From Ligustrum vulgare (lineage: Eukaryota; Streptophyta; Magnoliopsida; Lamiales; Oleaceae): a stretch of DNA of 64,000 bases. Location of the stretch: the NCBI GenBank assembly GCA_963555705.1, contig OY743169.1, positions 45,620,124 to 45,684,123 on the forward strand, in the 5' to 3' direction. Shown one piece after another: positions 9,509 to 60,888 of this stretch. Under the pieces are notes generated by a model, which saw only the letters and a program-made list of their open reading frames with translations, ran no database searches and was not told the DNA's origin. Every line of letters begins with the position of its first letter. Positions within the stretch are counted from its first letter, which is position 1. A program made the translations under genes and the position numbers.

Positions 9509-10162
9509 ATGGAAGCACCAAAACTTCGACAGATCAAAACTATTTGTGTATTTTGTGGATCAAAAGTGGGGAAAGGCTTCAGTTATCTAGAAGCGGCCGT
9601 AGATCTTGGAAAGAAACTGGGGGAAAAAGGTATCACTCTTGTGTATGGGGGTGGTAGCAGTGGTCTAATGGGTTGTGTTTCCCAATCTGCTCTTGCAGAG
9701 AAATCAAAAGTAATCGGTGTCATACCTGTCCCTTTGGTAGATGTTGCAGGCAAAACACGAGGGCATGAAGTTCAAACATTATCCATCCATGAACGCATAA
9801 CTTGTATGCTATATGGTTCTGATGCCTTTATAGCCCTGCCCGGAGGTTTTGGTACCTTAGAAGAAATCTTTAACATTACCTCGTGGGCTCAACTAGATCT
9901 CCATACTAAGCCTATTGGGCTTCTGAATGTTAACAATTTCTTTGATGGCTTGTTAACCTTTCTTGATTATGCTGTGGAACAGGGATTCATCTCTCCATTT
10001 TCCAGAAGGCTCCTTATTTCTGCTCCTACTATTGATGAACTACTGGATAAGCTGCAGTCATATATCTCAATACAAGATCCAGCAGGGGTTAAGATAGATT
10101 GGTCGCAAGGAAGGGGAATCAAGCGAAAATGGAGTCCGGTTAATGTAAACTTAACTTTATGA
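9509..10162 (+). CDS. LOG-like cytokinin riboside 5'-monophosphate phosphoribohydrolase
   Basis: LOG enzymes release active cytokinin bases from their nucleotides in one step. This 217-residue protein has the normal family length and signatures: CVFCGS near the N-terminus, YGGGSSGLMG (usually YGGGSIGLMG), the HER motif carrying the substrate-contacting arginine, and the PGGFGTLEE catalytic motif with its glutamate (about 111-119), then SWAQL and GLLNV. No transit peptide is visible; LOGs are usually cytosolic. Between HER and PGG it reads ITCMLYGSDAFIAL rather than the more common KAAMARxADAFIAL, marking a divergent LOG subgroup. The whole coding region is one exon, whereas canonical LOG genes have several introns, so this may be a retrocopy. 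A TATA-like ttaaatag lies near 9425. A dead inverted copy lies at 29017-29724. It is the only complete cellular gene in the window. Confidence 0.87.
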   Translation: MEAPKLRQIKTICVFCGSKVGKGFSYLEAAVDLGKKLGEKGITLVYGGGSSGLMGCVSQSALAEKSKVIGVIPVPLVDVAGKTRGHEVQTLSIHERITCMLYGSDAFIALPGGFGTLEEIFNITSWAQLDLHTKPIGLLNVNNFFDGLLTFLDYAVEQGFISPFSRRLLISAPTIDELLDKLQSYISIQDPAGVKIDWSQGRGIKRKWSPVNVNLTL

Positions 10163-12436: not shown

Positions 12437-12952
12437 TGTGACGACCCGAATTCTCGACCATTCGAGTGCCACAAAAAGTGACTCATATCATATTATCGAG
12501 ACTTAAATAGTAATGTAAAATTATTCAAAAGAATAATTAGAATCCCATAATTTAATTTGTGAATAAAAATAGAACATAATTTTCTTACATAAAGTTCAAC
12601 ATAATTATCTCATCAATCTTAACCACTTTTGCCACTTCCATGTTGACCGCCTCGAACCTTCAATTATCTGAAAATGGTAAATATCGTGTAGTGAGATTTA
12701 TAAAATCCCAGTAAGTATACCAAGCATAAATTTTCTTTTGAAAGCATATGGATCATTTTCATCATAACATAGGATAGGATTGAAATATTCATAAACATAG
12801 GGAGACACAAGAATTTTACCGAACTTAAATGGCAAGAATTCTTATGTGTAGCGCTACTAAACTCCGGTCCCCTTAGTATAATCATAAACATATCATATGG
12901 AACCCATAACAATCTTGTGAGATTGATTTCATAGCAATGATCCAAACATTTT

Positions 12953-13322
12953 CATAAAAACATAAGATATACTTACTTGTCATAAAAACATACTTACTTT
13001 TCATAAAAACATAAGGTATACTTACTTGTCATAAAAACATACTTACTTTTCATAAAAACATAAGGTGTATTTACCTTTCATAAAAACATACTTACTTTTC
13101 ATAAAAACATAAGATATACTTACTTGTCATAAAAACATACTTACTTTTCATAAAAACATAAGGTGTATTTACCTTTCATAAAAACATACTTACTTTTCAT
13201 AAAAACATAAGATATACTTACTTGTCATAAAAACATACTTACTTTTCATAAAAACATAAGGTGTATTTACCTTTCATAAAAACATACTTACTTTTCATAA
13301 AAACATAAGATATACTTACTTT
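12953..13322. repeat. Compound minisatellite inside the LTR, higher-order period about 98 bp
   Basis: Blocks all starting with cataaaaacat alternate in length: a 28-bp form ending agatatacttacttgt, a 21-bp form ending acttactttt, a 28-bp form ending aaggtgtatttaccttt, then the 21-bp form again. The set of four (about 98 bp) repeats nearly perfectly three to four times, so whole sets were amplified together. Confidence 0.85.
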
Positions 13323-13546
13323 TTAAAAGATTAAAATGAAGTGTAGTAGTAAATGGACCAAAACTTTCTTGACCACCTTGAATTTCTCTTACTTGTGGAT
13401 TTTGTCAAGAGATTGGAAATAAGTGTATATGTGTAGAGTTGTGTGTAAAAGAGATGGGTTTAAATAGATGTATAAAGTTGGCATATTGTAAACATAATCA
13501 TTCAATTCTATTAATTTTAACACATCCTTTTCTTAAAGTAAAGCAC

Positions 13547-14044
13547 CATTCATATACTTTTCCATATTTATACAAATAATATGCTCTTCATGATTATATA
13601 TAATGGAGTATATAAATCATTCATATACTTTTCCATATTTATACAAATATTATGCTCTTCATGATTACATATAATGGAGTCTTATCAATCATTCATATAC
13701 TTTTCCATATTTATACAAATATTATGCTCTTCATGATTATATATAATGGAGTATATAATTCATTCATATACTTTTTCATATTTATACAAATATTATGCTC
13801 TTCATGATTACATATAATGGAGTCTTATCAATCATTCATATACTTTTCCATATTTATACAAATATTATGCTCTTCATGATTATATATAATGGAGTATATA
13901 ATTCATTCATATACTTTTCCATATTTATACAAATATTATGCTCTTCATGATTACATATAATGGAATCTATCAACCATTTATATACTTTTCCATAATTATT
14001 AAATTAAGATTCTCATAATTATTATATATAATGGAACCTCTCAT
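13547..14044. repeat. 71/72-bp minisatellite with alternating (dimeric) variants
   Basis: Seven units begin cattcatatac at 13547, 13618, 13690, 13761, 13833, 13904 and about 13975. Odd units end in tatataatggagtatataa, even units in catataatggagtcttatca, so the amplification unit was a 143-bp dimer. Later units decay toward the right. Confidence 0.85.
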
Positions 14045-14329
14045 GCTTGCATATATTTTCTTAATTTAAATAATAAAAGTAATTTTTGTACAAATAAATA
14101 TTGGGATAACATTGAATTAAGTACTTAGACTTAATATACTTTAAATCAAGAGAATGGAGATATTTTTAGAAATTCGGAATTTAATTTAAAATCGAACGAT
14201 CTCGATTATTTCTTGACTTGGCTATACGAATACGTCGTGGCGTTAACTTAATAAAAATGGGTGAAATAGTAGCGACACGATTTTCTATTAAAATAATTAT
14301 TAATCGCGTAAAAATTCTTGGTCGCTACA

Positions 14330-16134: not shown

Positions 16135-17059
16135 TGATGTGATTCGGACCAGACGTCGAAGGGCGAAGTCGAGTCATCGGCTATATGACAATGATCTACG
16201 TGCAAAACGGAGCAAGTTCCATATTGGGATCGAGCCGAGAAGCGGGACGGATCAAGCCGAGCCGAGAAAACGAAGTTATTTGGGCAGAAAATCCATTACG
16301 ACCGTAATGGATGACCTTCATGGCCCTAACCCATGTATTCACGACCGTAAATCTTACAATCACGGCCGTAATCAATTATCGAAGGAAAAAGGAAAATTGC
16401 AGCAAAACGAGGCTTACGGCCGTAAGCTTGGAAGTTACGGCCGTAACATTCAAAGCAGGGGCAATTCACGGCCGTAAGAAATTCGTCACGGCCATAACTA
16501 ATAACACATTTTTGGATCAGAAAGGCATTTACGGCCGTAAATAAGCAGCGCCAGATTTTCCGGGAAATTCTCAATTATTTTGTTTCCTTTTTTATTTTAA
16601 GTTATTTGCATAATTTGGAATTTTAGCTTAATTAGAATTCTATTTTGAGTAAATTAGAGGCTATGTTATTTTGCTTATTTATATTCCTTTCCATTCATTG
16701 TAAAAAAACAAGTTTGAGTTTATGAATTAAATTGAGAGAAGATTCTCTTGTTAAAAGTTGAGTTTTTCCCTTTTGTTTCGAACTTATCAAAGATTCGTTC
16801 TTTGTGCCGTTCACCCAACGAACTTATTAAGGAATTGACAACCCTTGTGGCGTTCACCAATCTTTGTTCTTCAATCCGCATCGTCATTAATTGCGTCGTG
16901 ATTGTCGGGTCAAGGTTTTACCGTCAAATCTATCTTTTAATTCCCGTTTATTTATTCGTGTTCTTGTTATTTTTCGTGTCAGATTTGATTTAGATCTTTC
17001 CTAGGGTTTATTTCGTTATTCCGCATTTTCGACGAGATTCCCCGACTGGGATCTCATCA
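16135..17059 (+). repeat. 5' LTR of the non-autonomous gypsy element
   Basis: It runs from TGATGTGATTCGG to GGGATCTCATCA, 925 bp. Its partner (18875-19826) is 952 bp; the 27-bp difference is fully explained by a 21-bp motif unit plus small indels of 3, 2 and 1 bp. A TATTTATAT box at 16676-16684 is the likely promoter, with the ACGGCCGT array upstream. Confidence 0.9.
16293..16540. promoter_or_regulatory. Array of ACGGCCGT palindromes in the LTR
   Basis: About nine copies of the palindrome TTACGGCCGTAA or its half-changed forms lie between 16293 and 16540. Damaged copies (ACGACCGT, ACGGCCAT) differ by C-to-T or G-to-A changes, several at CpG, the pattern of methylcytosine decay. Position upstream of the TATA box suggests an enhancer or a silencer-binding array; function is inferred. 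Confidence 0.6.
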
Positions 17060-17061
17060 TC

Positions 17062-17073
17062 TGGTATCAGAGC
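17062..17073 (+). other. Primer binding site of the non-autonomous gypsy element
   Basis: TGGTATCAGAGC begins two bases after the LTR end. About 380 bp of T-rich leader follow before the gag start. Confidence 0.9.
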
Positions 17074-17457
17074 TTGGATCTATTTCAGATTCTTGCGTTT
17101 CTTGAATTTTCTTGATTTTTTTTTGTGTTCTTCGCGTTCTTCGTGCCAGTTATAAATTTTTTCAATTTGATCCATAAGAGTCAGTCCCAAAAATTCAAAA
17201 GTGTTTTTCTTGTTTGTTTTTCATCCAAATCCAGTTCTGTTTTTTCTGCCATACTCGTAGTCCAATTCTCTGGAAGATTAAAAAAAAAATTTGAAAATTT
17301 CATTTTTTTTCCATATTCCATATTTTCTCAATTCTTCAATTTGTTCTTATTCGTGTCTTGTTTATCTACCCTTGATAAAGAGTTCTTGAGAAGTAAAAAG
17401 AGTGATACACGAGTGATAAAGATTTTTGAGGAATTTTATTTCTTCTTGTTATAAACC

Positions 17458-18400
17458 ATGTCTCGCGGGGAGAAATCTTCATCAATAGGTGACAACAAAC
17501 AGCCCGAAAGAGGGGATAGGATATTGGAGCAGGGTGTTGAATTATTGGCAGAGATGCAGGCAAAACTTAAGAAGGTAATGGCTAGGATGGATAAAAGAGA
17601 TGCGTTGATTGCCCAATTGAAAAAGGAGCAATCGCGGGCGGACTCTATGTCTAGGAGGAGTAGTAAGCGTGAATGTCATGCTAGGTACGGAGATGGGATG
17701 GATGAAAGGCCATTGAAGCGAAAAGAGACATCAAAACAGGAGAGTAGTGATCATGTTCACAAAAGGAGGGAGGAACCGACAACTGAAGGTAAAAATAATT
17801 CTGATTCCAAGCCTCTTAAAGATAAAAATGTTAAGTGCTTTAAATGTTTGGAACGGGGTCACATTGCACTTGATTGTCCACGTAAGAAGGCTAAGTGTAA
17901 TAGTGAAGGAGCGAAAAGTGTTGTGGTGGATGAGTCAATTATTGATAGGCATGGTCTTAGCGTTAAGCGTAAGGCGAATGTTTTGGAAAATGTGGATGGA
18001 CAAAGGGATAATATTTTTCGCACTAGATGCTTAGTTGATGAAAAAGTTTGTAGCTTGGTGATTGACGGGGGAAGTTGTACTAATGTAGTTAGTACAATGT
18101 TGGTGGAAAAATTAGGCTTACCTTTAACGAAACGTCCAACGCCTTATAAATTACAATGGTTGACTGAGTCAGGGGAAGTTAAGGTGAAGAGACAGGCTTT
18201 AGTGAAATTTTCTTTTGGTTGGTATTCGGATGAGGTAATTTGTGACGTGGTGCCAATGTAAATTAGTCATATACTATTGAGGAGACCTTGGCAACATGAA
18301 AGGGCTGTGCTACATGATGGGTATACAAATAGATACAACTTAGTAAAAGGGGGGAAAAAGTTTACTCTAATGCCACTATCTCCAACTGAAGCCCCCTGAA
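17458..18400 (+). pseudogene. Truncated gag-protease of the non-autonomous gypsy element
   Basis: A 267-residue frame (17458-18261) starts with a charged, coiled-coil-like segment (LLAEMQAKLKKVMARMDKRD), then has the CCHC knuckle CFKCLERGHIALDC (about residues 126-139) and the protease region around VIDGGSCTN (about 201). The gag capsid domain present in the relative at 44164 is missing. A TAA at 18259-18261 ends the frame after DVVPM, but the next 140 bases still translate into sequence matching the relative (HILLRRPWQ), so the stop is a later lesion or the protein was allowed to shorten. RT and integrase are absent. Confidence 0.8.
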
Positions 18401-18874
18401 AGATCAATTGAAAGTGAAAAGTGAGTTTGAGGGGAAACATAAGAGAGTTGGGGTCACGACCTCAGAAAAAGGAGAGGGAGTGGAAATTAAATAAAATATA
18501 GTTGAGGCCACGACCTCAGAAAAAGGAGAGGGAGTGAAAGATAAAGAAAAGAGGGTTGAGGTTCAAACCTCAGAAAAAGGAGAGACTGAGTTCAAAAAAC
18601 AAAAGAAAAGAGAGTCTACCACAAAAATGAGTCTATTTGCACTTACTCACTCTAACACACCCCTCCCCAGTTCTTTAAAATCTGTTTCACAGGTACCGAA
18701 GTCAAACCATGAACTTAAGGCGGGAAAGAAATTCATTGGCAAAAATGAGCAGCCCAAAAGCCTAAAAGATCGCACGAAGCTTAAAAATTATCATCGAGCC
18801 CAGGAGAGTAGGAGGAATTTGAAAAGTCGACCAAAAATGGATTCGAGGTCGAATCCTTTTCAAGAGAGGGAGTA
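18401..18874 (+). repeat. Peptide-repeat linker and 3' remnant before the LTR
   Basis: Three copies of a segment encoding (E)[13 protein letters not shown] peptides (ccacgacctcagaaaaagga and variants) lie at about 18450-18590. The same repeated linker sits between protease and RT in the relative at 45570-45690. The sequence then jumps to the pol C-terminus (DSRSNPFQERE) at 18840-18875, showing that the deletion removed everything from RT to the integrase end. Confidence 0.75.
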
Positions 18875-19826
18875 TGATGTGATCCAGACTAGGCATTGAA
18901 GGGCGAATTTGAGCCATCGGCAATATGACAATGATCTACGTGCAAAAAGGAGCAAGTTCCATATTGGAATCGAGCCGAGAAGAGGGACGGATCAAGACGA
19001 GCCGAGAAAACGAAGTTATTTGGGCAGAAAATCCATTACGGCCGTAATGGATGACCTTCATGGCCGTAACCCATGTATTCACGGCCGTAAATCTTAAAAT
19101 CACGACCGTAATCAATTATCGAAGGAAAAAGGAAAATTGCAGCAGAACGAGGCTTACGGCCGTAAGCTTGGAAGTTACGGCCGTAACATTCAAAGCAGGG
19201 GCAATTCACGACCGTAAGAAATTCGTCACGGCCGTAACTAATAACACAGTTTTGGATCAGAAAGGCCTTTACGGCCGTAAGAGGGTCTGTCACGGCCGTA
19301 AATAAGCAGCGCCTGATTTTCAGGGAAATTTTCAATTATTTTGTTTCCTTTTTTATTTTAAGTTATTTGCATAATTTGGAATTTTAGCTTAATTAGAATT
19401 CTATTTTGAGTAAATTAGAGGCTATGTTATTATTTTGCTTATTTATATTCCTTTCCATTCATTGTAAAAAACACAAGTTTGAGTTTATGAATTAAATTGA
19501 GAGAGGATTCTCTTGTTAAAGGTTGAGTTTTTCCCTTTTGTTTCGAACTTATCAAAGATTCGTTCTTTGTGGCGTTCACCCAACGAACTTATCAAGGAAT
19601 TGACAACCCTTGTGGCGTTCACCAATCTTTGTTCTTCAATCCGCATCGTCATTAATTGCGTCGTGATTTTCGGGTCAAGGTTTTACCGTCAAATCTATCT
19701 TTTAATTCCCGTTTATTTATTCGTGTTCTTGTTATTTTTCGTGTCAGATTTGATTTAGATCTTTCCTAGGGTTTAAATTTCGTTATTCCGCGTTTTCGAC
19801 GAGATTCCCCGACTGGGATCTCATCA
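18875..19826 (+). repeat. 3' LTR of the non-autonomous gypsy element, with palindrome array
   Basis: TGATGTGATCCAG to CTCATCA, 952 bp. ACGGCCGT-type palindromes start at about 19038, 19060, 19081, 19102, 19156, 19177, 19208, 19228, 19271 and 19292: one more than in the 5' LTR, from a 21-bp unit difference at 19281-19301. Confidence 0.9.
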
Positions 19827-41251: not shown

Positions 41252-42464
41252 CTAACACATGTAATTTGATTCAATTTTATCTTCCCCTAAAGTTGCACTC
41301 CCTTGAATACCAATAGAAAATGGACAGGTTTCATCAAAGTGATCATAATCTTCTTTATCTACCACATCATCAATGACAACAATGCGTCTCTTGCCTTGAA
41401 GGACGACTGACCACTTAGTATTGGCAGGATCAAGAACATAAAATATCTGTTTCGCTTGTGATTCAAGTATGAATGACTCGTCAAGATAACCCAAACGTCC
41501 AAAATCCACCTAAGTGAAACCTAATTCATTCACCCGAACACCCCGTCGATTATCAACCCGTTTACATTGGAATAGAGGAAACTTGAACTCACTGTAATCA
41601 AGTTTTGAAATATCTTCAATGACACCATAATAGGACATCGAGGCATCTATTGGCATTGTATCTTTAGCACTTGAAAAATCTCTTGAAAGTGCTACTTGTG
41701 TCACTCCACCATTTTGCATCGCACTCTTATCATCCTGACGTTTAGTGTAAAACGTATACTCATTAATGTCATATACTTCATAAGACCTTTCAATCGTGCT
41801 AGGGCCATACGCTAACCACTTTACCATTTCAACAATTGTATTCGGCGTTTGTGACAACTCTTTCATCACTCTATCTTTGAACCATTTTGCAAATGAACGA
41901 TTATGTTCATTAGTTACCCACCTTTCAACTTTTGAAGGATTTTGCTTCCTTAAGATGGACATGTGCTCGTCCAAATATGGATGAAGTTCAGGAAGGTGTT
42001 GTAATACAAGGAGGTGTGCTTTATCTCGTAATTCAACATTGGGGACGATTGATTTGCTTCCAATCGTACCTTTACCTTCGAGTCTTCCCTCGTGACGAGA
42101 TTTAGGAACACCAATAGTCTCAATGTCTTCTAGGTAATCAGTACAAAATTCAATAGCTTCCTCACCAGCATAACCTTCAATGATACTGCCTTCAGGTCGA
42201 AATCGATTTCTCACATATCCTTTCAATATACCCATGTATCTCTCAAATGGATACATATACCTCAAGAACACTGGACCACAGATCTTAATTTCTCTTACCA
42301 AGTGAACAAGTAAGTGCACCATAATGTCAAGAAATGATGGCGGAAAATACATTTCAAATTGATAAAGAATGATAACAATATCGGCTTGCAAATCATCCAA
42401 CGCCTCCGGATCAACAACTTTACTGCAAATTGCGTTGAAGAAAAAACACAGTTTTATAATGACA
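41252..42464 (-). pseudogene. CACTA TNP2-type transposase, C-terminal part
   Basis: From 42464 the minus strand encodes the DUF4218 region (DDLQADIVIILYQFEMYFPP, MVHLLVHLVREIKICGPVFL, RYMYPFERYMGILKGYVRNR) and then the DUF4216 region (YYGVIEDISKLDYSEFKFPL, FQCKRVDNRRGVRVNELGFT). An in-frame TAG at about 41510 replaces a residue in the FT-VDFGRLGY junction, after which the frame continues (FILESQAKQIFYVLDPANTK) to 41252. So there is one visible nonsense codon besides the gypsy insertion. TNP2 cuts and joins element ends. The start codon just beyond 42464 belongs to the inserted LTR. Confidence 0.85.
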
Positions 42465-43306
42465 TGATGTGATCCATACCACGGATACAAGCCCGCACAA
42501 AGATCCGTTGAAGATCAAAGGAGGACCGATGACTCAATTGCAGACAAAGAGGGCCAAGGAAGCAATGGACGAGTTAGTTCAAGAAACAATGGCCAAAACA
42601 ATGTTCGTGTCATCAAAAGAAGCAAGTTCCATGTTGGGGCCGAGCCAAAACGATGAGTGGATCAACCTTATTCATTGCGTCGAAGAAAGTGGTGCAGTTT
42701 CAATGTTACGGCCGTAACATACAAATCCTCACGGCCGTAAAGATTGAGTATCACGGCCGTAAAGGTTAACATCACGGCCGTAAGGGAGTTGCTGCTTAAA
42801 TTGAAGTTTGGACGTTTTGGACTTACGGTCGTAAGTCATATGTCACGGCCGTAAGAGTAAGTCAGAAACAAGTTTACGGCCGTAAGGAAAGTGGTCACGG
42901 CCGTAAAAATGTATACACGGAATTTTAGGTTATTTTTATTTCCTTATTTTTAGGTAGTTGTTTCCTTATTTAATTAGAAGTCTTAACCTAGTTTTTTACC
43001 CTATTTATAGGGATGTAATTTTCATTATTCATAACGAACTTTGATATATTAATTGAGAGGCAAATTGCTTTCACATTCTTATTCTTTATTGAATAAAATC
43101 CGAACTTGCGAGTTAATTCTTGTTTGTTCAAATCTTGGGTGAAATTTATCTTCTTTGTGATCAAGAGGTCAACATATCAATTGATTGTGTTGGTTGCTTG
43201 ATTCAATTAATTTGAATCAATCTCTAAATCGTGGTTCTTGGCGTTCTTGGGTCGATTCCAATAATTTGTGGGTTGCGTAGCTACAATTGCTACGTGGTTT
43301 GCATCA
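42465..43306 (+). repeat. 5' LTR of the gypsy element (842 bp)
   Basis: TGATGTGATCC to TTTGCATCA. A TATTTATA box lies at 43002-43009. The 8-copy ACGGCCGT array lies 100-300 bp upstream of it. The first 250 bp are open in the frame that ends pol in the 3' LTR. Confidence 0.93.
42705..42907. promoter_or_regulatory. Eight phased ACGGCCGT palindromes in the 5' LTR
   Basis: ACGGCCGT (or one-base variants) starts at 42708, 42731, 42753, 42774, 42825, 42845, 42876 and 42897, giving gaps of 23, 22, 21, 51, 20, 31 and 21 bp, close to 2, 2, 2, 5, 2, 3 and 2 helical turns. Most copies extend to CACGGCCGTAA or TTACGGCCGTAA. The array is upstream of the TATA box. A DNA-binding role is inferred, not shown. 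Confidence 0.65.
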
Positions 43307-43308
43307 TC

Positions 43309-43320
43309 TGGTATCAGAGA
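43309..43320 (+). other. Primer binding site of the gypsy element
   Basis: TGGTATCAGAGA, two bases after the LTR; the last base differs from the usual C. Confidence 0.85.
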
Positions 43321-43876
43321 TTAGGCTCCAAAAATCAAGGTTATATCTTGTTTTTGTTTTTTCTTGAGTTTCTTATTCTTGTTCTTCGTGTTCTTCCAGC
43401 TTTGAGTCTTTAATCCAGAAAAGTGTCACAAAAAATTCAATAGTCGTTATTTCCTTCGTTTGTTATCCAAATTAAATTTCGTTTGTTGCGTCTTTCTCGT
43501 AGTTGAATTTCCGAGAATAAAAAAAAAAAAACGAAAATTCGCAGTCCAATTAAAATAGTTGATATTTGATTTCAAAAAATACTTTCATGAAGCAATCTTT
43601 AGTTTCCATAAAAAGTGTCAAGTCCCTTATAGAGTCAAATTCAGTTCTCTAAAGGTCTTCTTTGAGTTTTCCAAAAAATTCATTACTTCTCACTCATATT
43701 CGATTTGAAGCAATCGGGTTTAAACTTGTTTGAGTTCGGGTTCGTTCTTTAAAGCAATTGGGGTGAAAGCTATTGAGTGGAAAAAGGCAGAGTGGTGAGA
43801 TCAATAGAGGGTAAAAGCCAAATTTGAGTGAAACACCAGCGAAATACACGTGAGGCATATAATATTTAGTTTTAGG

Positions 43877-44167
43877 ATGTCTGAACAATCTGCTACTACA
43901 AAAAACAACGATCGAGTCCACATGACGGAAGAGATGGTACAACGGTTTGAGCGGCTGTTTGGAGATGTGCTAGGCAGGTTAGAAAGGCTTGAGCAACCTC
44001 GGAAAGTGCCTAATGCCCGTAGGCAAGGTGGGCAAGGTCGTAGAGTAGAGGGGGTTGATGAGAATGAAGAAGTTAGTGATTTTGACGATGGGGCAATTGT
44101 TGATAGAGTAGTTAGGCATGGAAGAAGGGATAGAGATCTTGATGGCGATAGAATGGTGGTAGTATGA
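43877..44167 (+). CDS. Gag N-terminus of the gypsy element, separated by a frameshift
   Basis: The 96-residue frame starts [20 protein letters not shown] and has a predicted amphipathic helix ([20 protein letters not shown]) and a basic/acidic linker. It ends at a TGA that overlaps the ATG of the next frame (44164). In related elements gag reads continuously into KMTIPSFKG, so I take the frame change near 44150 as a mutation rather than a regulated overlap, without proof. Confidence 0.7.
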
Positions 44168-46107
44168 GCAACATCAAAATGACAATTCCGTCATTCAAGG
44201 GTAGGAGTGATCCGGAAGCATACTTAGAATGGGAGAAGAAGATGGAATTAATTTTTAATTGCTACACTTATTCGGAAGAAAAAAAGGTTAAGGTAGCTGT
44301 ACTTGAATTCTCCGATTACGCTACTACTTGGTGGGATCAATTGGTGACTTCTAGGAGGAGGAATCGCGAGAGGTCCGTTAGTACTTGGGATGAATTAAAA
44401 GCTATCATGAGAAAGAGGTTCGTTCCTAGTCATTACCATCGGGAGCTGCATCAAAAATTACAAAGTCTCTACCAAGGATCAAAAAGTGTGGAGGATTATC
44501 ATAAGGAGATGGAGATGTTGATGATTAGAGCTAATGTAGAAGAGGATAGGGAGGCTACGATGGCTCGATTTTTGAATGGATTGAATAGGGATATAGCTAA
44601 TGTGGTTGAACTACAGCATTACTTGGAGATGGAGGATATGTTGCACATGGCTATAAAGGTGGAGAAACAATTGAAGAAAAAGGGAATAGCAAGGTATCAA
44701 TCGGGTTCTAATTCTTCTTGGAAGCCGAAGTGGGAAAGTAAAGGAGATGGGGCTGTTTCTAAGGGAAAATTTGAAGCATCAAAAGGAAAGTTTGAGGCAC
44801 CAAAAGGGAAGGAGGAACAAGTTAGTAAATTCGTACCTAAAGGGGAGCCGCAACCATCTAGGAGCAGAGACATTCAATGTTTCAAATGCTTGGGGAGAGG
44901 ACATGTGGCATCTCAATGTCCTAATAGGCGAGTGGTCCTTTTACGAAAGGATGGAACTATGGAGAGTGATAGTGAGGAAGAGGATTCTAGCGATATGCTA
45001 GCATTGGAGGAAGTATGTGATGATGAGGATGTGTTGTCCGGGGAGCATGGCGAGTTGTTAGTGGCAAGGCGAGCCCTTAGTGCTCAAATCCACACGGATG
45101 ATTTGGAACAACAACGGGAGAACATATTCCATACACGATGTCGCGTTAATGACAAGGTATGTAGTATGATTATTGATGGTGGTAGTTGCACTAACGTCGC
45201 TAGTACTATACTTGTTGAAAAATTAGGATTACCTTTGTTAAAACATCCTAAACCTTATAGGCTTCAATGGTTAAATGATAGTGGTGAAATTAAGGTGAAT
45301 AGGAGGGTGTTGGTAAGTTTTTCTATTGGTAGCTATGTGGATGAAGTTATGTGTGATGTGGTACCTATGCATGCCGGGCATATTTTGTTGAGTAGGCCTT
45401 GGCAATATGATAGGAAGGTCACGCATGATGGGTATAAAAATAGGTATAGCTTTATCAAAGGGGGAAAAACCATTACACTTGCACCATTGACACCATCACA
45501 AGTGTATGAAGATCAAATAAAACTGAAAAATGATGAAGAAAAAAGAGTAAAGGAAAATGAGAGAAAGAGAGTTGAGGCCACGACCTCAGAAAAAGGAGAG
45601 GAAAAGAGAGTTGGAGCCACGACTCCAGAAAAAGGAGAGGCGAGAGAAAAAAAGAGTGTTGGGGTACATACCTCAGAAAAAGGAGAGGGAGCGAAGAGTG
45701 TCAGAAAAGAAAGAAAAATGAGTTTCTACGCAAAAAGGAGTGAAATCAAAAAGGCATTCATGGAAGAACGACCGATGGTCCTTCTGCTGTACAAGGAATC
45801 ATTCCTTGCATTTGATGAAACTAACAAATCCCTCCCTAGTTTGGCTATTTCTTTATTGCAGGAATTTGACGATATATTTCCCGAAGACATACCTAGTGGG
45901 TTACCACCCATTCGAGGTATTGAACATCAAATTGATTTTGTACCTGGAGCAGTCATTCCGAACCGCCCCGCTTATCGAAGTAACCCCGAGGAGACGAAGG
46001 AGCTCCAAAGGCAAGTGGAGGACTTGATGAGCAAAGGGTATATAAGGGAAAGTATGAGTCCTTGTGCCGTCCCCGTATTACTTGTGCCGAAGAAGGACGG
46101 GACGTGA
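44164..46107 (+). CDS. Gag capsid, zinc knuckle, protease and start of RT
   Basis: The 647-residue frame holds the retrotransposon gag domain ([48 protein letters not shown]; residues about 7-150), the CCHC knuckle [15 protein letters not shown] (about 239-253), the aspartic protease with [13 protein letters not shown] (about 338), a repeated linker ([23 protein letters not shown]; about 470-515), and the RT N-terminus up to [11 protein letters not shown]. The next codon, normally Trp (KKDGTWRMCVD), is TGA at 46105-46107, a one-base G-to-A change. Pol continues in the same frame immediately after it. Confidence 0.93.
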
Positions 46108-48204
46108 AGAATGTGTGTTGATTGTAGAGTCACCAACAACATAACGGTAAAGTATCGTCATCCTATTCCTAGGTTAGATGATATGTTGGATGAATTGCAT
46201 GGCTCTAGCATAGTTAGTAAAATTGACCTTAAGAGTGGTTATCATCAAATTCGAATGAAAGAAGGAGATGAGTGGAAAACTGCTTTTAAAACTAAGTATG
46301 GACTATATGAATGGTTAGTAATGCCTTTTGGACTTACTAATGCACCTAGCACATTTATGCGTTTAATGAATCATGTTTTACGTGCATTTATAGGTAAATT
46401 CTTCGTAGTTTACTTCGATGATATCTTGATATATAGTAAAACTTTGAATGAGCATATGGAGCATGTTAGGTGTGTGCTTGTGGTTTTAAGACAAGAGCAA
46501 CTTTTTGCTAACTTTAAAAAGTGTGATTTTTGCATGGAAAAAGTTGTGTTTCTTGGTTATGTGGTTAGTGCTAAAGGGATAGAAGTAGATGAAGAGAAAG
46601 TCAAAGCTATTAAAGAGTGGCCAACACCTAAAAGCATAACTGAGGTTAGGAGTTTTCATGGCTTGGCTAGTTTTTATAGGCGCTTTGTTAAAAATTTTAG
46701 CACGATTGCCGCACCACTCACAGAAATTGTCAAAAAGAGTGTAGGGTTTAAATGGGGTGTAGAACAGAAGCATGCATTTGATACTATCAAAAATATGTTA
46801 TGTGAAGCACCGGTTTTATCACTTCCTAACTTTGACAAGGCTTTTGAGATTGAATGTGATGCCTTAGGGCTAGGCATTGGAGCTGTTTTAATGCAGGATC
46901 AAAGGCCAATCGCCTATTTTAGTGAAAAACTAAAAGGGGCTGCACTTAATTATCCCACATACGACAAGGAGTTATACTCACTTGTGCGCGCTTTGGAAAC
47001 ATGGCAACATTACTTGTGGCCACGGGAGTTCGTGATACACACTGATCATGAATCCTTGAAACATTTGAGGGGACAAGCTAAGCTAAGTAAGAGACATGCA
47101 AGGTGGGTAGAGTTCATCGAAACATTTCCCTATGTCATCCGGTACAAACAAGGTAAGGTGGCAGATGCATTGTCTCGAAGGTATGTTCTTCTAAATTCTT
47201 TAAATTCTAAATTACTTGGATTTGAATACATTAAGGACATGTATGTTAGTGATCCGGACTTTTCTATTATTTATGATTCATGTGGTAAAGGGGATGTGGA
47301 TAAATTCTTTAAACATGATGATTATTTATTCCGAGAAAATAAATTGTGTGTCCCTAGGTGTTCAATGAGGGAGTTACTTGTGAGGGAGGCCCATAGTGGA
47401 GGTCTAATGGGTCATTTTGGAATTAAAAAGACCATTGAAATCCTAAGTGAACATTTCTATTGGCCTAAAATGAAAATTGATGTGGTTCGGGTTTGTAATA
47501 GATGCATTACTTGTAAAAAGGCTAAGTCTAGGATTAAACCCCATGGATTATATATGCCTTTACCCGTCCCTAGTGAACCTTGGGTCGATATCGCTATGGA
47601 TTTTGTTTTAGGATTGCCTAGGACTAAGAAGGGTCGAGATTCTATTTTTGTGGTAGTAGATCGCTTTAGTAAAATGGCACATTTCATACCATGCCACAAA
47701 ACTGACGATGCTACAAACGTAACTGAAATTTTCTTTAGGGAAGTCGTGCGCTTACATGGGGTGCCTAAAAGTATTGTCTCGGATAGGGATGTTAAATTCC
47801 TTAGTCATTTTTGGAGAGTCTTGTGGAACAAATTAGGAACAAAACTACTTTTCTCTACAACTTGTCTCCCACAGACCGATGGACAGACCGAGGTAGTAAA
47901 TAGGACAATGATTCAATTGTTGCGCACGATAATCAATAAAAATCTGAAAAATTGGGAAGAGTGTTTACCATTTATTGAATTTGCATATAATAGGGCTATA
48001 CATTCTACTACTTCGTGTTCACCATTTGAAATTGTTTATGGTTTTAATCCGCTAACACCATTGGATTTAATTCCTTTACCTGTGAATGAACGTAGTAGTT
48101 TAGATGGCAAGAAAAAGGCTGAGATGGTTAAAGCACTCCATGACAAGGTGAGGTTGGCGATTAAAAAGAAAAATGAACATTATGCTTCGCAGGCTAACAA
48201 ATGA
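46108..48204 (+). CDS. RT, RNase H and integrase of the gypsy element
   Basis: Following the TGA, RT continues ([47 protein letters not shown], and the catalytic [11 protein letters not shown]). RNase H has [18 protein letters not shown] (usual D-A-S is D-A-L), [19 protein letters not shown] and [10 protein letters not shown]. Integrase has the zinc region ([32 protein letters not shown]) and the D,D,E core ([39 protein letters not shown]). A TGA at 48202-48204 interrupts the frame after QANK. Same frame as the preceding part. Confidence 0.93.
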
Positions 48205-48715
48205 AGAAAGGGCATCATATTTGAACCCGGTGGCTGGGTTTGGGTACATTTGAGAAAGGAGCGGTTTCCAGAACAGCGCAAGTCAAAGTTACAACCGCGA
48301 GGGGATGGTCCATTCCAAGTGATCGAAAGGATAAAAAATAATGCCTATAAACTCGATCTTCCTGGTGAGTATAATGTTTCGGCATCATTTAATGTTTCTG
48401 ATCTATCTCCGTTTGATGCAGGTACAGATTCGAGGTCGAATCCTTTTGAAGAGGGGGGGGAATGATGTGATCCAGACCACGGATACAAGCCCGCACAAAG
48501 ATCCGTTGAAGATAAAAGGAGGACCGATGACTCGATTGCAGACAAAAAGGGCCAAGGAAGCAATGGACGAGTTAGTTCAAGAAACAATGGCCAAAACAAT
48601 GTTCGTGTCATCAAAAGAAGCAAGTTCCATGTTGGGGCCGAGCCAAAACGATGAGTGGATCAACCTTATTCATTGCGTCGAAGAAAGTGGTGCAGTTTCA
48701 ATGTTACGGCCGTAA
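48205..48715 (+). CDS. Integrase C-terminus, reading into the 3' LTR
   Basis: After the TGA the frame continues with [40 protein letters not shown] and [18 protein letters not shown] to [12 protein letters not shown], stopping at 48465 just inside the 3' LTR. In the next frame the protein would continue through the LTR ([40 protein letters not shown]) to a TAA at 48713-48715, which lies inside the first ACGGCCGTAA palindrome. One G more or less in the purine tract would join them. There is no canonical chromodomain. Confidence 0.7.
48448..48462 (+). other. Polypurine tract
   Basis: A run of purines with a long G tract directly before the 3' LTR; primes plus-strand synthesis. Confidence 0.85.
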
Positions 48716-49283
48716 CATACAAATCCTCACGGCCGTAAAGATTGAGTATCACGGCCGTAAAGGTTAACATCACGGCCATAAGGGAGTTGCTGCTTAAATT
48801 GAAGTTTGGACGTTTTGGACTTACGGCCGTAAGTCATATGTCACGACCGTAAGAGTAAGTCAGAAACAAGTTTACGGCCGTAAAAATGTATACACGGAAT
48901 TTTAGGTTATTTTTATTTCCTTATTTTTAGGTAGTTGTTTCCTTATTTAATTAGAAGTCTTAACCTAGTTTTTTACCCTATTTATAGGGATGTAATTTTC
49001 ATTATTCATAACGAACTTTGATATATTAATTGAGAGGCAAATTGCTTTCACATTCTTATTCTTTATTGAATAAAATCCGAACTTGCGAGTTAATTCTTGT
49101 TTGTTCAAATCTTGGGTGAGATTTATCTTCTTTGTGATCAAGAGGTCAACATATCAATTGATTGTGTTGGTTGCTTGATTCAATTAATTTGAATCAATCT
49201 CTAAATCGTGGTTCTTGGCGTTCTTGGGTCGATTCCAATAATTTGTGGGTTGCGTAGCTACAATTGCTACGTGGTTTGCATCA
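48463..49283 (+). repeat. 3' LTR of the gypsy element (821 bp) with seven palindromes
   Basis: Identical in layout to 42465-43306 but 21 bp shorter, fully explained by loss of one spacer-plus-palindrome unit. Some palindromes have changed by C-to-T/G-to-A (ACGGCCAT, ACGACCGT), while ACGGTCGT of the 5' LTR is intact here. Confidence 0.93.
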
Positions 49284-49926
49284 TGACATGTCTAACATGT
49301 TTTGGAAGTTTGCCTCGAATTGCAACCGGTAACAAGTGTTGCATTAAGACATGACAATCATGAGACTTCATGCCAACCAATTTCAGGTCCTTCATCGACC
49401 CAAGACTTTTGATGTTTGAAGAGTATCCGATGGAACCTTAATAGCATGCAAGCACTCACAAAAACTTGTTTTTTCTTTTCTAGACAAAGTATAGCAAGAT
49501 GGGGGTAAATAAGTACGTTTTCTGACTCTTGCGGTGCTAACTGATCCCGTATCCCCATTTCTACCATGTCCTTCCTGACTTTGATACAATCTTTCGTCTT
49601 TCCTTGAATGTTCAATAATGTCCCAATGATGCTATCACATACATTTTTATCCATGTGCATTACATCAAGACAATGTCTTGTTGATAAATGTTGCCAATAA
49701 GGTAGATCCCAGAATATGGACCTCTTCTTCCAAATACTCTTCTGAGGAGGCTTAAAAGGTTTTCCAAACAAAATATCAATATTTTTAACTCGTTCATATA
49801 CCTCACCTCCTGTTAACGGAAAGCAAGCTGCTCGAGCCTCGATTTTTCCATTGAATGACTTTTTCTTCTTTCGATAAGGATGGTCAGCAGGGAGAAATCT
49901 TCTATAAGGATCTACTGAAACAACAG
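49284..49926 (-). pseudogene. CACTA TNP2-type transposase, central part
   Basis: The minus strand from 49926 encodes VDPYRRFLPADHPYRKKKKS, the KRSIFWDLPYWQHLSTRHCL and DVMHMDKNVCDSIIGTLLNI motif of TNP2, GKTKDCIKVRKDMVEMGI, and (after a frame change around 49450) SHDCHVLMQ and LLPVAIRG, right up to the gypsy insertion point. The N-terminal catalytic part is missing: sequence upstream of a TTTCAG at 49926 is unrelated, either a lost exon or a truncation. Confidence 0.85.
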
Positions 49927-58645: not shown

Positions 58646-60872
58646 TGTAATACCGCTTTTTCGTTTTACGTGCTTTCTTGGATTTCGCGTAATTTTTTCT
58701 ATTAATGTCTCTATTAATCATTTTGACATTATTATTGTTGATATTTATTTGAATTATTTTGCAGTGGGAGGAATGGGACGCCGTCTCGTTCAATGTGCCA
58801 AATATGTCAATTAAAAGTTTATAAATCATCTACATGAAATTTTATGCCTAATAATTTATTTTAATTGTTACTTGCCAAATTCTATTTTTTTATTGAGTCA
58901 TAATTTGCCTAAATTGCATAAATTGAAATTGTCGAGTTTAGTGGCACTTTGAATTTAATTGAGGGTTGGGGGCTTAAATTGCCAAATTAAGAGAGTTTGG
59001 GGTTGATTTGTAAATTACCCAAAATTTATACTAAACCTAACCTAATAACCCTCAAACCCGTCCCTCACTCAGGCTCTCTCTCACTCTCACGCCACTCTCT
59101 GTCTCGGTATCTCTCTCTCTCTCGCCGCTCACACTCAAGCTTCCGTCTCTCTCGCCTCTCACCAAACCGCAACCTCTCGCCGGCAACGTCGCCGACCGCC
59201 AGTCACCAACCTAACACGGTAACACACTACTTCCCTCGATCGCGCACCCACACTCACAAGACACAACACACCCGCGGGCTGCACACAACACACACACTCG
59301 AAAACATGTATATAATGATGTGTGTGTATCTATATATTATACATATATGTGATTTTTTTTACATTGGGTGATAGTTAAATTTCAAAATTTTAAAATGCTA
59401 AAATTCAGATTGGGGGTAACGTTTATATGTGTGTGTATATAGTTATACATACATATTTATATAATTCATATTTGAAGTTTTTAAGAATTTATGATTTTAA
59501 TTGTGTTAACTTACTGTTTGAACCTAATTGTTAATCAAGATAACGGTAAATGCTAAGGACGTCAAGTAAGTAAACTTCCCCCTATTTTCATAGAAGTTGA
59601 ATGTAAATGTGAAAGTTATGTGTAAATGACTGTCGTGCAACTTACTTGCTTTGATGAATTGCATTTACATTATGAAAGCATATGTTATTGAGAAGAATGT
59701 TTAAGCATGCACATTATCATGTCATTGCATCATCAAGCATGCATTGACATCGAAATTTGGAAGTCAAATGTTTTAAATGAAAGAAATGTGTCAAAGTGCA
59801 AGTTTGTTCAAAAGTTATGTATCCCAAGTTTTTAAAGAATGAATGGGTGTGCTTCTAGTTCATGAAAGATGCGAGTGGGAAATGGGGCGCGGGGGACCGG
59901 CGTACCCGAATGTAATGAACCGCCTTGCGGTGGGAAAGTGAATGTTACACCGCTTTGCGGTGGGAAAGTGAATGTTACACCGCTTCGCGGTGGGAAAGTG
60001 AATGTTAAACCGCTTTGCGGTGGAAATGCGCATGTTAATCTGGTTCCAAATAAGAATGGCCCACTGTTATCTGATTGACTAGAAGTTACACCAAGTGAGC
60101 TCACGATGGAATGAAGTGAAAGTTTTGAAATGTCAAGTGAAAGATTGAAAAGTTTGAAAGTTTTGAAAGGTTAAAGTGAATGGGGATACATATTTCAAAG
60201 TTTAAAGCATTTCATGTCATAAGCATGCATTCATGCATAAAGTTTACTTACTGAGCTTTAGCTCACCCCAATCCCTCCCCAACATTTCAGGTGATGAAAG
60301 CTAGGTGATCCGAGGAGAGCACTTGGTGACAGACTCAGGCTACACCGCTTCAAGTTTTTAAAGAAAATAAAGTTAAAATTTGAAGTTAATTAAGTTTATA
60401 ATTAATTATTTCTTAATTCATTCATTTTATGTTGATAATCGTTTGGTTGAGATTAGTTTTAAATTAGTTATGGAATTTCTAATATTGGTTATATTATCAC
60501 TTATTGCACTTAATTGAAGCTTATTGATACAAAATGTTGTGTTGAGGAGTTTGGGGATTGAGTTTGAAATAATGTGGTGATGTTGGAGTTTGAAGTAGAA
60601 TTGAGGTTGTATGGTGAATATTGGATTTCTATTTGAGTTGAGTTTATGTTGTAAAATGGTTTTGATGTCCCCCTACAGGTTGGTTAAGTCCAATTTATAG
60701 AGGAGACTCTGTCGAAATTTCTATAAGATTTTAAAAATAGAAAATAAAAAGGTTGAAGTTTTTAAATGATTTGTTTTCCGCATTTTAATGTTTAAACGTT
60801 TTAAATTCCGCATTTAATGTGAATGGAAGTTAACACGCCTAGGTTTAAGGTTTTGAAACTTGGGGTGTTACA
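58646..60872 (+). repeat. 5' LTR of a Tekay/Del-like gypsy element (about 2.2 kb)
   Basis: Runs from TGTAATACCGC to GGGGTGTTACA, directly followed by a primer site. It contains a CT-rich tract (59070-59170) that can be read as a serine/arginine-rich peptide but looks like low-complexity leader DNA, and the hairpin minisatellite at 59920. The left boundary is chosen by the TG at the junction with the preceding LTR and is less certain than the right. Confidence 0.65.
59920..60039. repeat. 30-bp minisatellite, four units, each with a hairpin
   Basis: Units start at 59920, 59950, 59980 and 60010. Each is ccgctttgcggtgggaaagt plus gaatgttaca with small changes. The first 11 bases (CCGC-TTT-GCGG) form a perfect small hairpin, and the loop base change in unit 3 (TTC) keeps the stem. 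The long open frames across it on both strands follow from the 30-bp period. Confidence 0.9.
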
Positions 60873-60875
60873 TTT

Positions 60876-60888
60876 TTGGTATCAGAGC
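60876..60888 (+). other. Primer binding site of the gypsy element at the right edge
   Basis: TTGGTATCAGAGC, four bases after the LTR end at 60872. Confidence 0.88.

Follow-up and report, generated by a model that had tools for sequence, protein, structure and literature searches.

Arrays of paired palindromic sites upstream of the TATA box in the LTRs of two Ty3/gypsy lineages of Ligustrum vulgare

The long terminal repeats (LTRs) of two deep Ty3/gypsy lineages in the genome of Ligustrum vulgare contain arrays of a 12-bp palindromic site, placed shortly before the TATA box and built from couples of sites two helical turns apart. From its sequence and its position, each such array is probably a promoter-proximal enhancer in the U3 of the LTR, bound by putative host protein dimers. 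The arrays were recognized in a 64,000-nucleotide stretch of contig OY743169.1, from here on the window. The sample described below consists of the window and 20 ten-kb regions of the same 1.385-Gb genome, picked for holding a site pair, a choice that favours couples of 20-24 bp and does not favour any longer gap.

Within the window, 34 sequences match the 8-mer ACGGCCGT with at most one mismatch, compared with a mean of 3.64 and a maximum of 8 in 100 shuffles, none of which reached 34. Thirty-three of these matches fall into four LTR arrays of two elements, A and B, the lone remaining match being at 9593. A sequence-only reading of the window had described two of the arrays, and both descriptions are reproduced exactly. 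In the LTR at 42465-43306, eight ACGGCCGT sites occupy 42708-42904, with starts at 42708, 42731, 42753, 42774, 42825 (one mismatch), 42845, 42876 and 42897 and gaps of 23, 22, 21, 51, 20, 31 and 21 bp. In the LTR at 18875-19826, ten sites, three of which have one mismatch, occupy 19038-19299 with gaps of 22, 21, 21, 54, 21, 31, 20, 43 and 21 bp. With the site taken as T[T/C]ACGGCCGTAA, these arrays extend over 42706..42906 (5' LTR of element B) and 19036..19301 (3' LTR of element A), both on the + strand, as are all window features given below. Beyond that reading, the partner LTRs have arrays of their own, with the same 12-bp site and a CAGA companion, at 16298-16538 and 48706-48881. The former has eight sites (16296..16540, 5' LTR of element A) and the latter seven (48704..48883, 3' LTR of element B), each being one 21-bp site unit shorter than the array of its partner LTR, which implies that units are gained or lost singly.

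Element B (42465-49283) has TG..CA LTR ends, with a 5' LTR of 842 bp (42465..43306, TGATG..CATCA) and a 3' LTR of 821 bp (48463..49283), and is enclosed by the target duplication TGACA at 42460-42464 and 49284-49288. An alignment of its two LTRs has 8 differences in 823 bases and one 21-bp gap. The primer binding site TGGTATCAGAG, presumably of the methionine-initiator type, lies at 43309..43319, followed by an ORF for gag and protease (44164..46107, 647 aa) and another for reverse transcriptase, RNase H and integrase (46111..48204, 697 aa). This domain order, together with the LTR ends and the target duplication, is that of Ty3/gypsy elements, so that the earlier label of gypsy is borne out here. 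It does not extend with equal force to the shorter element A (16135-19826), where the sole ORF of at least 150 aa (17458..18261, 267 aa) gives only a weak protease match. Element A, which is apparently non-autonomous, has LTRs at 16135..17059 and 18875..19826 with gaps and 34 differences over 931 aligned bases, the target duplication CCTGG on both sides, and a counterpart of the primer binding site at 17062. A short direct repeat around GTTGAGGCCACGACCTCAGAAAAAGGAGAG, with copies 54 or 87 bp apart, is common to A (18416-18592) and B (45540-45695), where it lies within the gag-protease ORF. The window also contains tandem repeats of 49 bp (12900-13377), 71/143 bp (13476-14046) and 30 bp (59889-60038), as well as a further TGGTATCAGAG sequence at 60877 with no array nearby.

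The window and the 20 regions together yield 43 arrays with 296 adjacent gaps. The full site, T[T/C]ACGGCCGTAA, is 12 bp long: of 339 array sites, 324 have AA as the right flank and 335 have TT or TC as the left flank, C being the second base in about half. The central 8-mer is exact in 268 sites, the other 71 having one mismatch by the rule of the search. Each site contains two CpGs. The core is palindromic, although the site as a whole has a direction, given by the second-base C and by the one-sided CAGA. Nearly all gaps belong to a few classes, namely 20-23 bp (188), 29-32 bp (27), 42-45 bp (35), 51-55 bp (39), 63-64 bp (2) and 75 bp (3), and a more decayed site is visible inside the gaps of 63, 64 and 75 bp. 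The two gaps outside these classes, 14 and 37 bp, each occur in one LTR and are absent from the other LTR of that element.

The sequence-only reading saw an even row of single sites, a description that has to be replaced, as the real unit is a couple two turns apart. Among 25 representative arrays (three internal arrays and, for each element, one of its LTR arrays), which have 5-10 sites each, the 110 gaps no longer than 26 bp all measure 20-23 bp, with a mean of 21.08 and a standard deviation of 0.74, and the two-turn couple is thus certain. Complete elements carry two such LTRs. Successive couples are mostly 29-32, 42-45 or 51-55 bp apart, with 27 bp in some lineages. Couples are often accompanied by CAGA, which starts exactly 13 bp upstream of 45 of 82 first sites; of the lone sites, 1 of 4 has it at this distance, and of the 110 second sites none. 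The background of CAGA in these LTRs is 0.0041 per position. By class, the companion is found at 29 of 59 first sites in type I LTRs, 10 of 14 in type II LTRs and 6 of 9 in type II internal arrays (the types are defined below), and 24 of the 25 representatives have at least one. In the window it is exemplified by 42863..42866, before the site at 42876, and likewise by 48861, 16285, 16518, 19025, 19143 and 19258. The 30 of 59 type I first sites that have no CAGA at this position count against the enhancer reading.

Helical phasing, which had been proposed for the array as a whole, is firm within couples (21.1 +/- 0.7 bp) and no more than suggestive between them. Taken together, the 171 gaps in the 25 representatives have a vector length R of 0.85 at 10.5 bp and a best zero-phase period of 10.57, values dominated by the couple gaps. 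The 20 longer gaps of 8 representatives give an R of 0.69 (p = 2e-5 against uniform 24-76). For 39 between-couple gaps from 15 arrays, a set that includes L064 and L065 from a search for out-of-phase distances and leaves out L066 (gaps 21, 69, 27), R is 0.60 at 10.5 bp, which none of 200,000 uniform draws of 24-60 reached; their best period is near 11.5, and collapsing them to 7 homology classes gives p = 0.20. Because of the latter value and the lineages with 27-bp gaps, between-couple phasing is not independent evidence. Strict helical phasing throughout is weakened by the same two results, and phasing between couples is likely a tendency rather than a rule. Random spacing in other families had been named as the outcome that would contradict a conserved arrangement. 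Instead, the spacing is kept, apart from the minority with 27 bp.

These preferences extend through the genome. The exact pattern CACGGCCGTAA-N10-14-ACGGCCGTAA occurs 13,220 times in the 1.385 Gb, both strands summed, and its reversed control 0 times. The autocorrelation proposed earlier was carried out genome-wide for distances of 24-41 bp, in addition to this one pattern for 20-24 bp, and exact site pairs number 7,882 at 29-32 bp versus 930 at 24-28 bp and 2,359 at 33-41 bp, all such counts including family copies many times over and possibly perfect-palindrome pairs on both strands. Within the 33-41 bp class, 40-41 bp, equal to two couple gaps, is frequent among the matches listed. By comparison, 257 Gb of bacterial and archaeal genomes returned 12 stretches with the pair pattern (N8-14 allowed) and viral contigs returned one; these contigs hold isolated ACGGCCGT pairs or scattered sites and no arrays of the plant kind. 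In Bacteroides sp. 224, exact ACGGCCGT pairs spaced by 22 bp are present on four contigs (L056, L059, L060 and L063) and probably represent a bacterial repeat with no relation to the arrays of the plant.

In 37 of 40 LTR arrays, a TATA box follows 81-138 bp past the array. Type I LTRs have TATTTATA at 81-138 bp, and type II LTRs have TATAAA[A/T] at 84-86 bp. In the window, TATTTATA is found at 43002..43009 and also at 48979, 16676 and 19440. The boxes at 43002 and 19440, 95 and 138 bp past the last 10-mer ACGGCCGTAA, agree with the earlier statement that a box lies downstream of the array in both families, and the multi-site platform before a TATA box, as proposed earlier, is supported. The patterns used found no TATA box for three of the 40 LTR arrays (that of L031 and both of L042). 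Only one of the three internal arrays, that of L041, has a TATA box close by, 29 bp away, which counts against the enhancer reading.

The sequence-only reading spoke of two families, which proves too narrow, since the arrays occur in two deep Ty3 lineages, one of which has an internal array as well. Array-bearing LTR pairs represent 13 type I and 4 type II elements; a single array only was found in regions L031, L036, L046, L048 and L050. What looks like an endogenous pararetrovirus (caulimovirid) lies at L036:7590-9827, where ORFs encode domains of a viral movement protein, a protease and a reverse transcriptase. Ten of the 13 type I pairs show the TGGTATCAGAG primer site next to the LTR; the flanks examined for L039, L042 and L043 do not contain it. 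For a comparison of type I with the chromovirus branch of Ty3/gypsy, in which a chromodomain follows integrase, there is an ORF of L040 that has an SH3_Tf2-1 domain after integrase and no match to a chromodomain in Pfam. Type II comprises L035, L041 and L045, plus L049 by LTR similarity. Its LTRs start with TGATAAGTGT, and those of L041 and L045 end in ACACGCATCA, directly followed by TTTTTGGCGCCGT. L049 has three type II arrays at intervals of about 3.3 kb, as in a tandem LTR-internal-LTR-internal-LTR structure. The type II ORFs of at least 180 codons have gag and protease domains only (Retrotrans_gag, aspartic protease), or gag only in L049. The gags of element B and L041 are 25% identical over 85 residues, and the primer sites also differ between the lineages. 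Athila elements have a primer site of the TGGCGCC type. For a comparison of type II with Athila, there is TTTTTGGCGCCGT after the LTR in L041 and L045, and among the 120 gag relatives listed for type II, 3 carry PF03078, the ATHILA ORF-1 family; these elements offer no reverse transcriptase for a tree.

Type II elements L035, L041 and L045 have an additional array of three couples after the gag-protease region, with gaps of 20-22, 42-45, 20-21, 42-45 and 21 bp (L041:5779-5936, L035:6266-6423 and L045:4389-4543). By analogy with the Sirevirus boxes before the envelope gene, discussed below, this internal array could be a second promoter. In L041 alone, the 300 bp that follow contain the TATA box and then a 42-codon frame resembling a coiled coil. 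Between type I and type II LTRs, long spacers are scarcely alike: the mean z is 0.76 for five-turn spacers (21 pairs), near chance, and 1.46 for four-turn spacers (20 pairs), a slight value to which the shared CAGA adds, compared with 4.4-5.8 within type II LTRs. This implies that a grammar rather than a copied block is common to both lineages. Whole-array homology of types I and II has little support from these values; very old common descent of their arrays is possible.

The sites are under selection. Identity across five alignments of related LTRs is 0.91-0.97 for site columns and 0.55-0.71 for spacers. Partner LTRs within elements (17 pairs, from all regions with at least two LTR arrays) were set against 10 disjoint pairs of same-lineage elements. 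Site columns were those with a motif in either copy, a definition that inflates between-family site identity, though it favours conservation in both comparisons alike. Between elements, sites differ at 58/945 positions (0.061), spacers at 327/1094 (0.299) and flanks at 740/5125 (0.144), and all 42 same-lineage pairs give closely similar values of 0.054, 0.289 and 0.142. Within elements, sites differ at 56/1680 (0.033), spacers at 29/2057 (0.014) and flanks at 199/9120 (0.022), 69 of these flank differences (69/519 flank bases) being contributed by L049, where the two outer LTRs compared are possibly not true partners. For sites, the contrast of between-element with within-element differences has a Fisher p of 4e-20 against spacers and 1e-9 against flanks. 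By these rates, site decay in dead copies is no slower than the decay of flanks, yet the sites persist in lineages. This combination, conservation between families with free decay after insertion, implies that selection acts while the elements replicate. Spacers diverge faster than flanks between elements and more slowly within an element; the former counts against the enhancer reading.

A fixed sequence with fixed couple spacing, direction and a place upstream of the TATA box points to a DNA-bound protein and a promoter function. We suggest that a sequence-specific host protein, probably a dimer, would read the palindrome TTACGGCCGTAA and dock on each site. Two such dimers, two turns apart and facing the same side of the DNA, would act as one unit, perhaps as a tetramer, helped by a second protein contact at CAGA 13 bp upstream, and several such couples would activate the promoter whose TATA box lies about 80-140 bp downstream. 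A host factor is the likelier binder, as the ORFs of at least 150 aa in element B encode gag-protease and pol only. A literature search on LBD proteins as the binder gave nothing useful among the matches listed.

On sequence grounds, the enhancer appears to fit better than a silencing target. If the role were at the RNA level, neighbouring palindromes would pair in the transcript as hairpins that feed small RNAs, and the array would be a target of host recognition and silencing. The RNA of the element B array (42690-42920) does fold more stably than all 200 shuffles (z -5.4), a property that the DNA reading does not need and that counts against it, and 110-nt windows below -40 kcal/mol occur in 4 of 8 arrays tested, the 19038 array not among them. 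Of the 71 one-mismatch sites, 35 are CHG and 21 CpG transitions, as expected of methylated, silenced copies. There is also a precedent, as PMC10760457, in the text accessible to us, cites Bousios 2016 for maize Sirevirus LTR palindromes as small-RNA hotspots and has them proposed as the hairpin source. Those palindromes resemble the present arrays in clustering in the cis-regulatory part of the LTR and in strong predicted RNA structure, but differ in the palindrome itself and in superfamily. Nevertheless, we consider an exclusively RNA-level role unlikely: hairpin arms could covary, yet the site sequence is identical across families and lineages; RNA pairing needs neither 21-bp couples nor CAGA at -13; and a pure silencing target should be lost under selection on the element, whereas the sites are kept. 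The two roles could also exist together. More doubtful still is an architectural function, by which sites at a period of about 10.5 bp place or exclude nucleosomes around the promoter. The overall R of 0.85 is in its favour, as is the wheat element RLG_Quinta, whose nucleosome-placing LTR motif, QuinCent, was gained from another retrotransposon (PMC11302176). As far as the accessible text of that paper goes, QuinCent and our arrays are alike as regulatory LTR motifs found across superfamilies or lineages, with inverted-repeat character and a place upstream of a predicted promoter. However, QuinCent is a single 162-bp sequence that is homologous between donor and recipient, whereas here there are short sites with little or no spacer homology. 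In addition, nucleosome signals need far less specificity than is seen in a strict 12-bp sequence that has its companion on one side only, and gaps of 27 bp are tolerated.

The same grammar in unrelated families of one genome might suggest a regulator encoded by a mobile element, such as a trans-activator or anti-silencing factor that serves several families. This is very unlikely, given that only gag and pol ORFs were seen in B (at least 150 codons) and L032 (at least 180 codons). The least probable explanation, to which we give hardly any credence, is that a 21-bp unit was duplicated in tandem and left the array as a neutral relic. It would account for the single-unit differences between the LTRs of A and of B and for a few recent duplicates in L041 and L045; spacer identity of at least 0.8 is found for 2.4% of couple-spacer pairs within arrays, versus 0.15% between lineages, and these recent duplicates count against the enhancer reading. 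But couple spacers as a whole match at 0.384 within arrays, 0.347 between lineages and 0.328 when shuffled, while the sites are conserved, and a relic would not produce the between-family versus within-element contrast of the sites. For most arrays, the spacer comparison contradicts simple 21-bp duplication, an outcome that had been named as one that would refute the earlier reading, and it upholds the earlier statement that spacing is kept despite spacer divergence, other families too having kept their gaps.

Among the matches listed, the open-licence literature contained no report of such arrays in Ty3/gypsy LTRs and no plant LTR paper with ACGGCCGT by title, and CGGCCGTAA jointly with retrotransposons had no match in the literature searched. 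Tandem activator boxes of the Tnt1/Tto1 type are short binding sites in U3 that drive transcription through host factors. The arrays here likewise consist of repeated short sites in U3, putatively binding sites, although Tnt1/Tto1 boxes have two or three copies of other sequences and, to our knowledge, no couple grammar. The accessible part of PMC2829016 refers to Tnt1 box I and to arrays with two or three motifs. The same paper describes what is, strikingly, the closest known kind, the RM boxes of Sireviruses (Ty1/copia). These are palindromes with a CGG-CCG core in 12 of 13 elements, present in 8 to 32 copies per element, mostly in the upstream half of the LTR and ending shortly before the TATA box, with divergent flanking sequence and no common binding factor found (PMC2829016, as accessible). 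The present arrays share the palindrome with a CGG-CCG core, the high copy number upstream of the TATA box and the divergent flanks, and the likeness extends to extra internal copies, placed upstream of the envelope gene in Sireviruses and after gag-protease in type II. Its authors call RM boxes Sirevirus specific, from comparison with classic Ty1/copia elements (PMC2829016). The hosts here are not Sireviruses but Ty3/gypsy elements, element B having gag, reverse transcriptase, RNase H and integrase of the Ty3 type. Unlike RM boxes, all arrays examined in this genome use a single box in which CGG directly adjoins CCG, and neither couples two turns apart nor a CAGA companion are described for RM boxes in the accessible text of PMC2829016.

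It is conceivable, and we put it forward tentatively, that one class of plant DNA-binding protein reads CGG-CCG palindromes, as two dimers on sites exactly two turns apart with a CAGA contact, and was recruited independently by two Ty3/gypsy lineages and by Sireviruses. If one class reads them all, a convergent cis-regulatory grammar would place much of a genome's retrotransposon load under the same host regulator. That grammar, a 12-bp palindrome with couples at 21 bp and CAGA at -13, is compact and testable. In L. vulgare, the 13,220 couple-type pairs suggest that thousands of elements from two deep lineages answer to one regulator. The identity of the protein would tell when and where these elements are transcribed and why they multiplied, and also whether the CGG-CCG boxes of Sireviruses respond to this protein as well.
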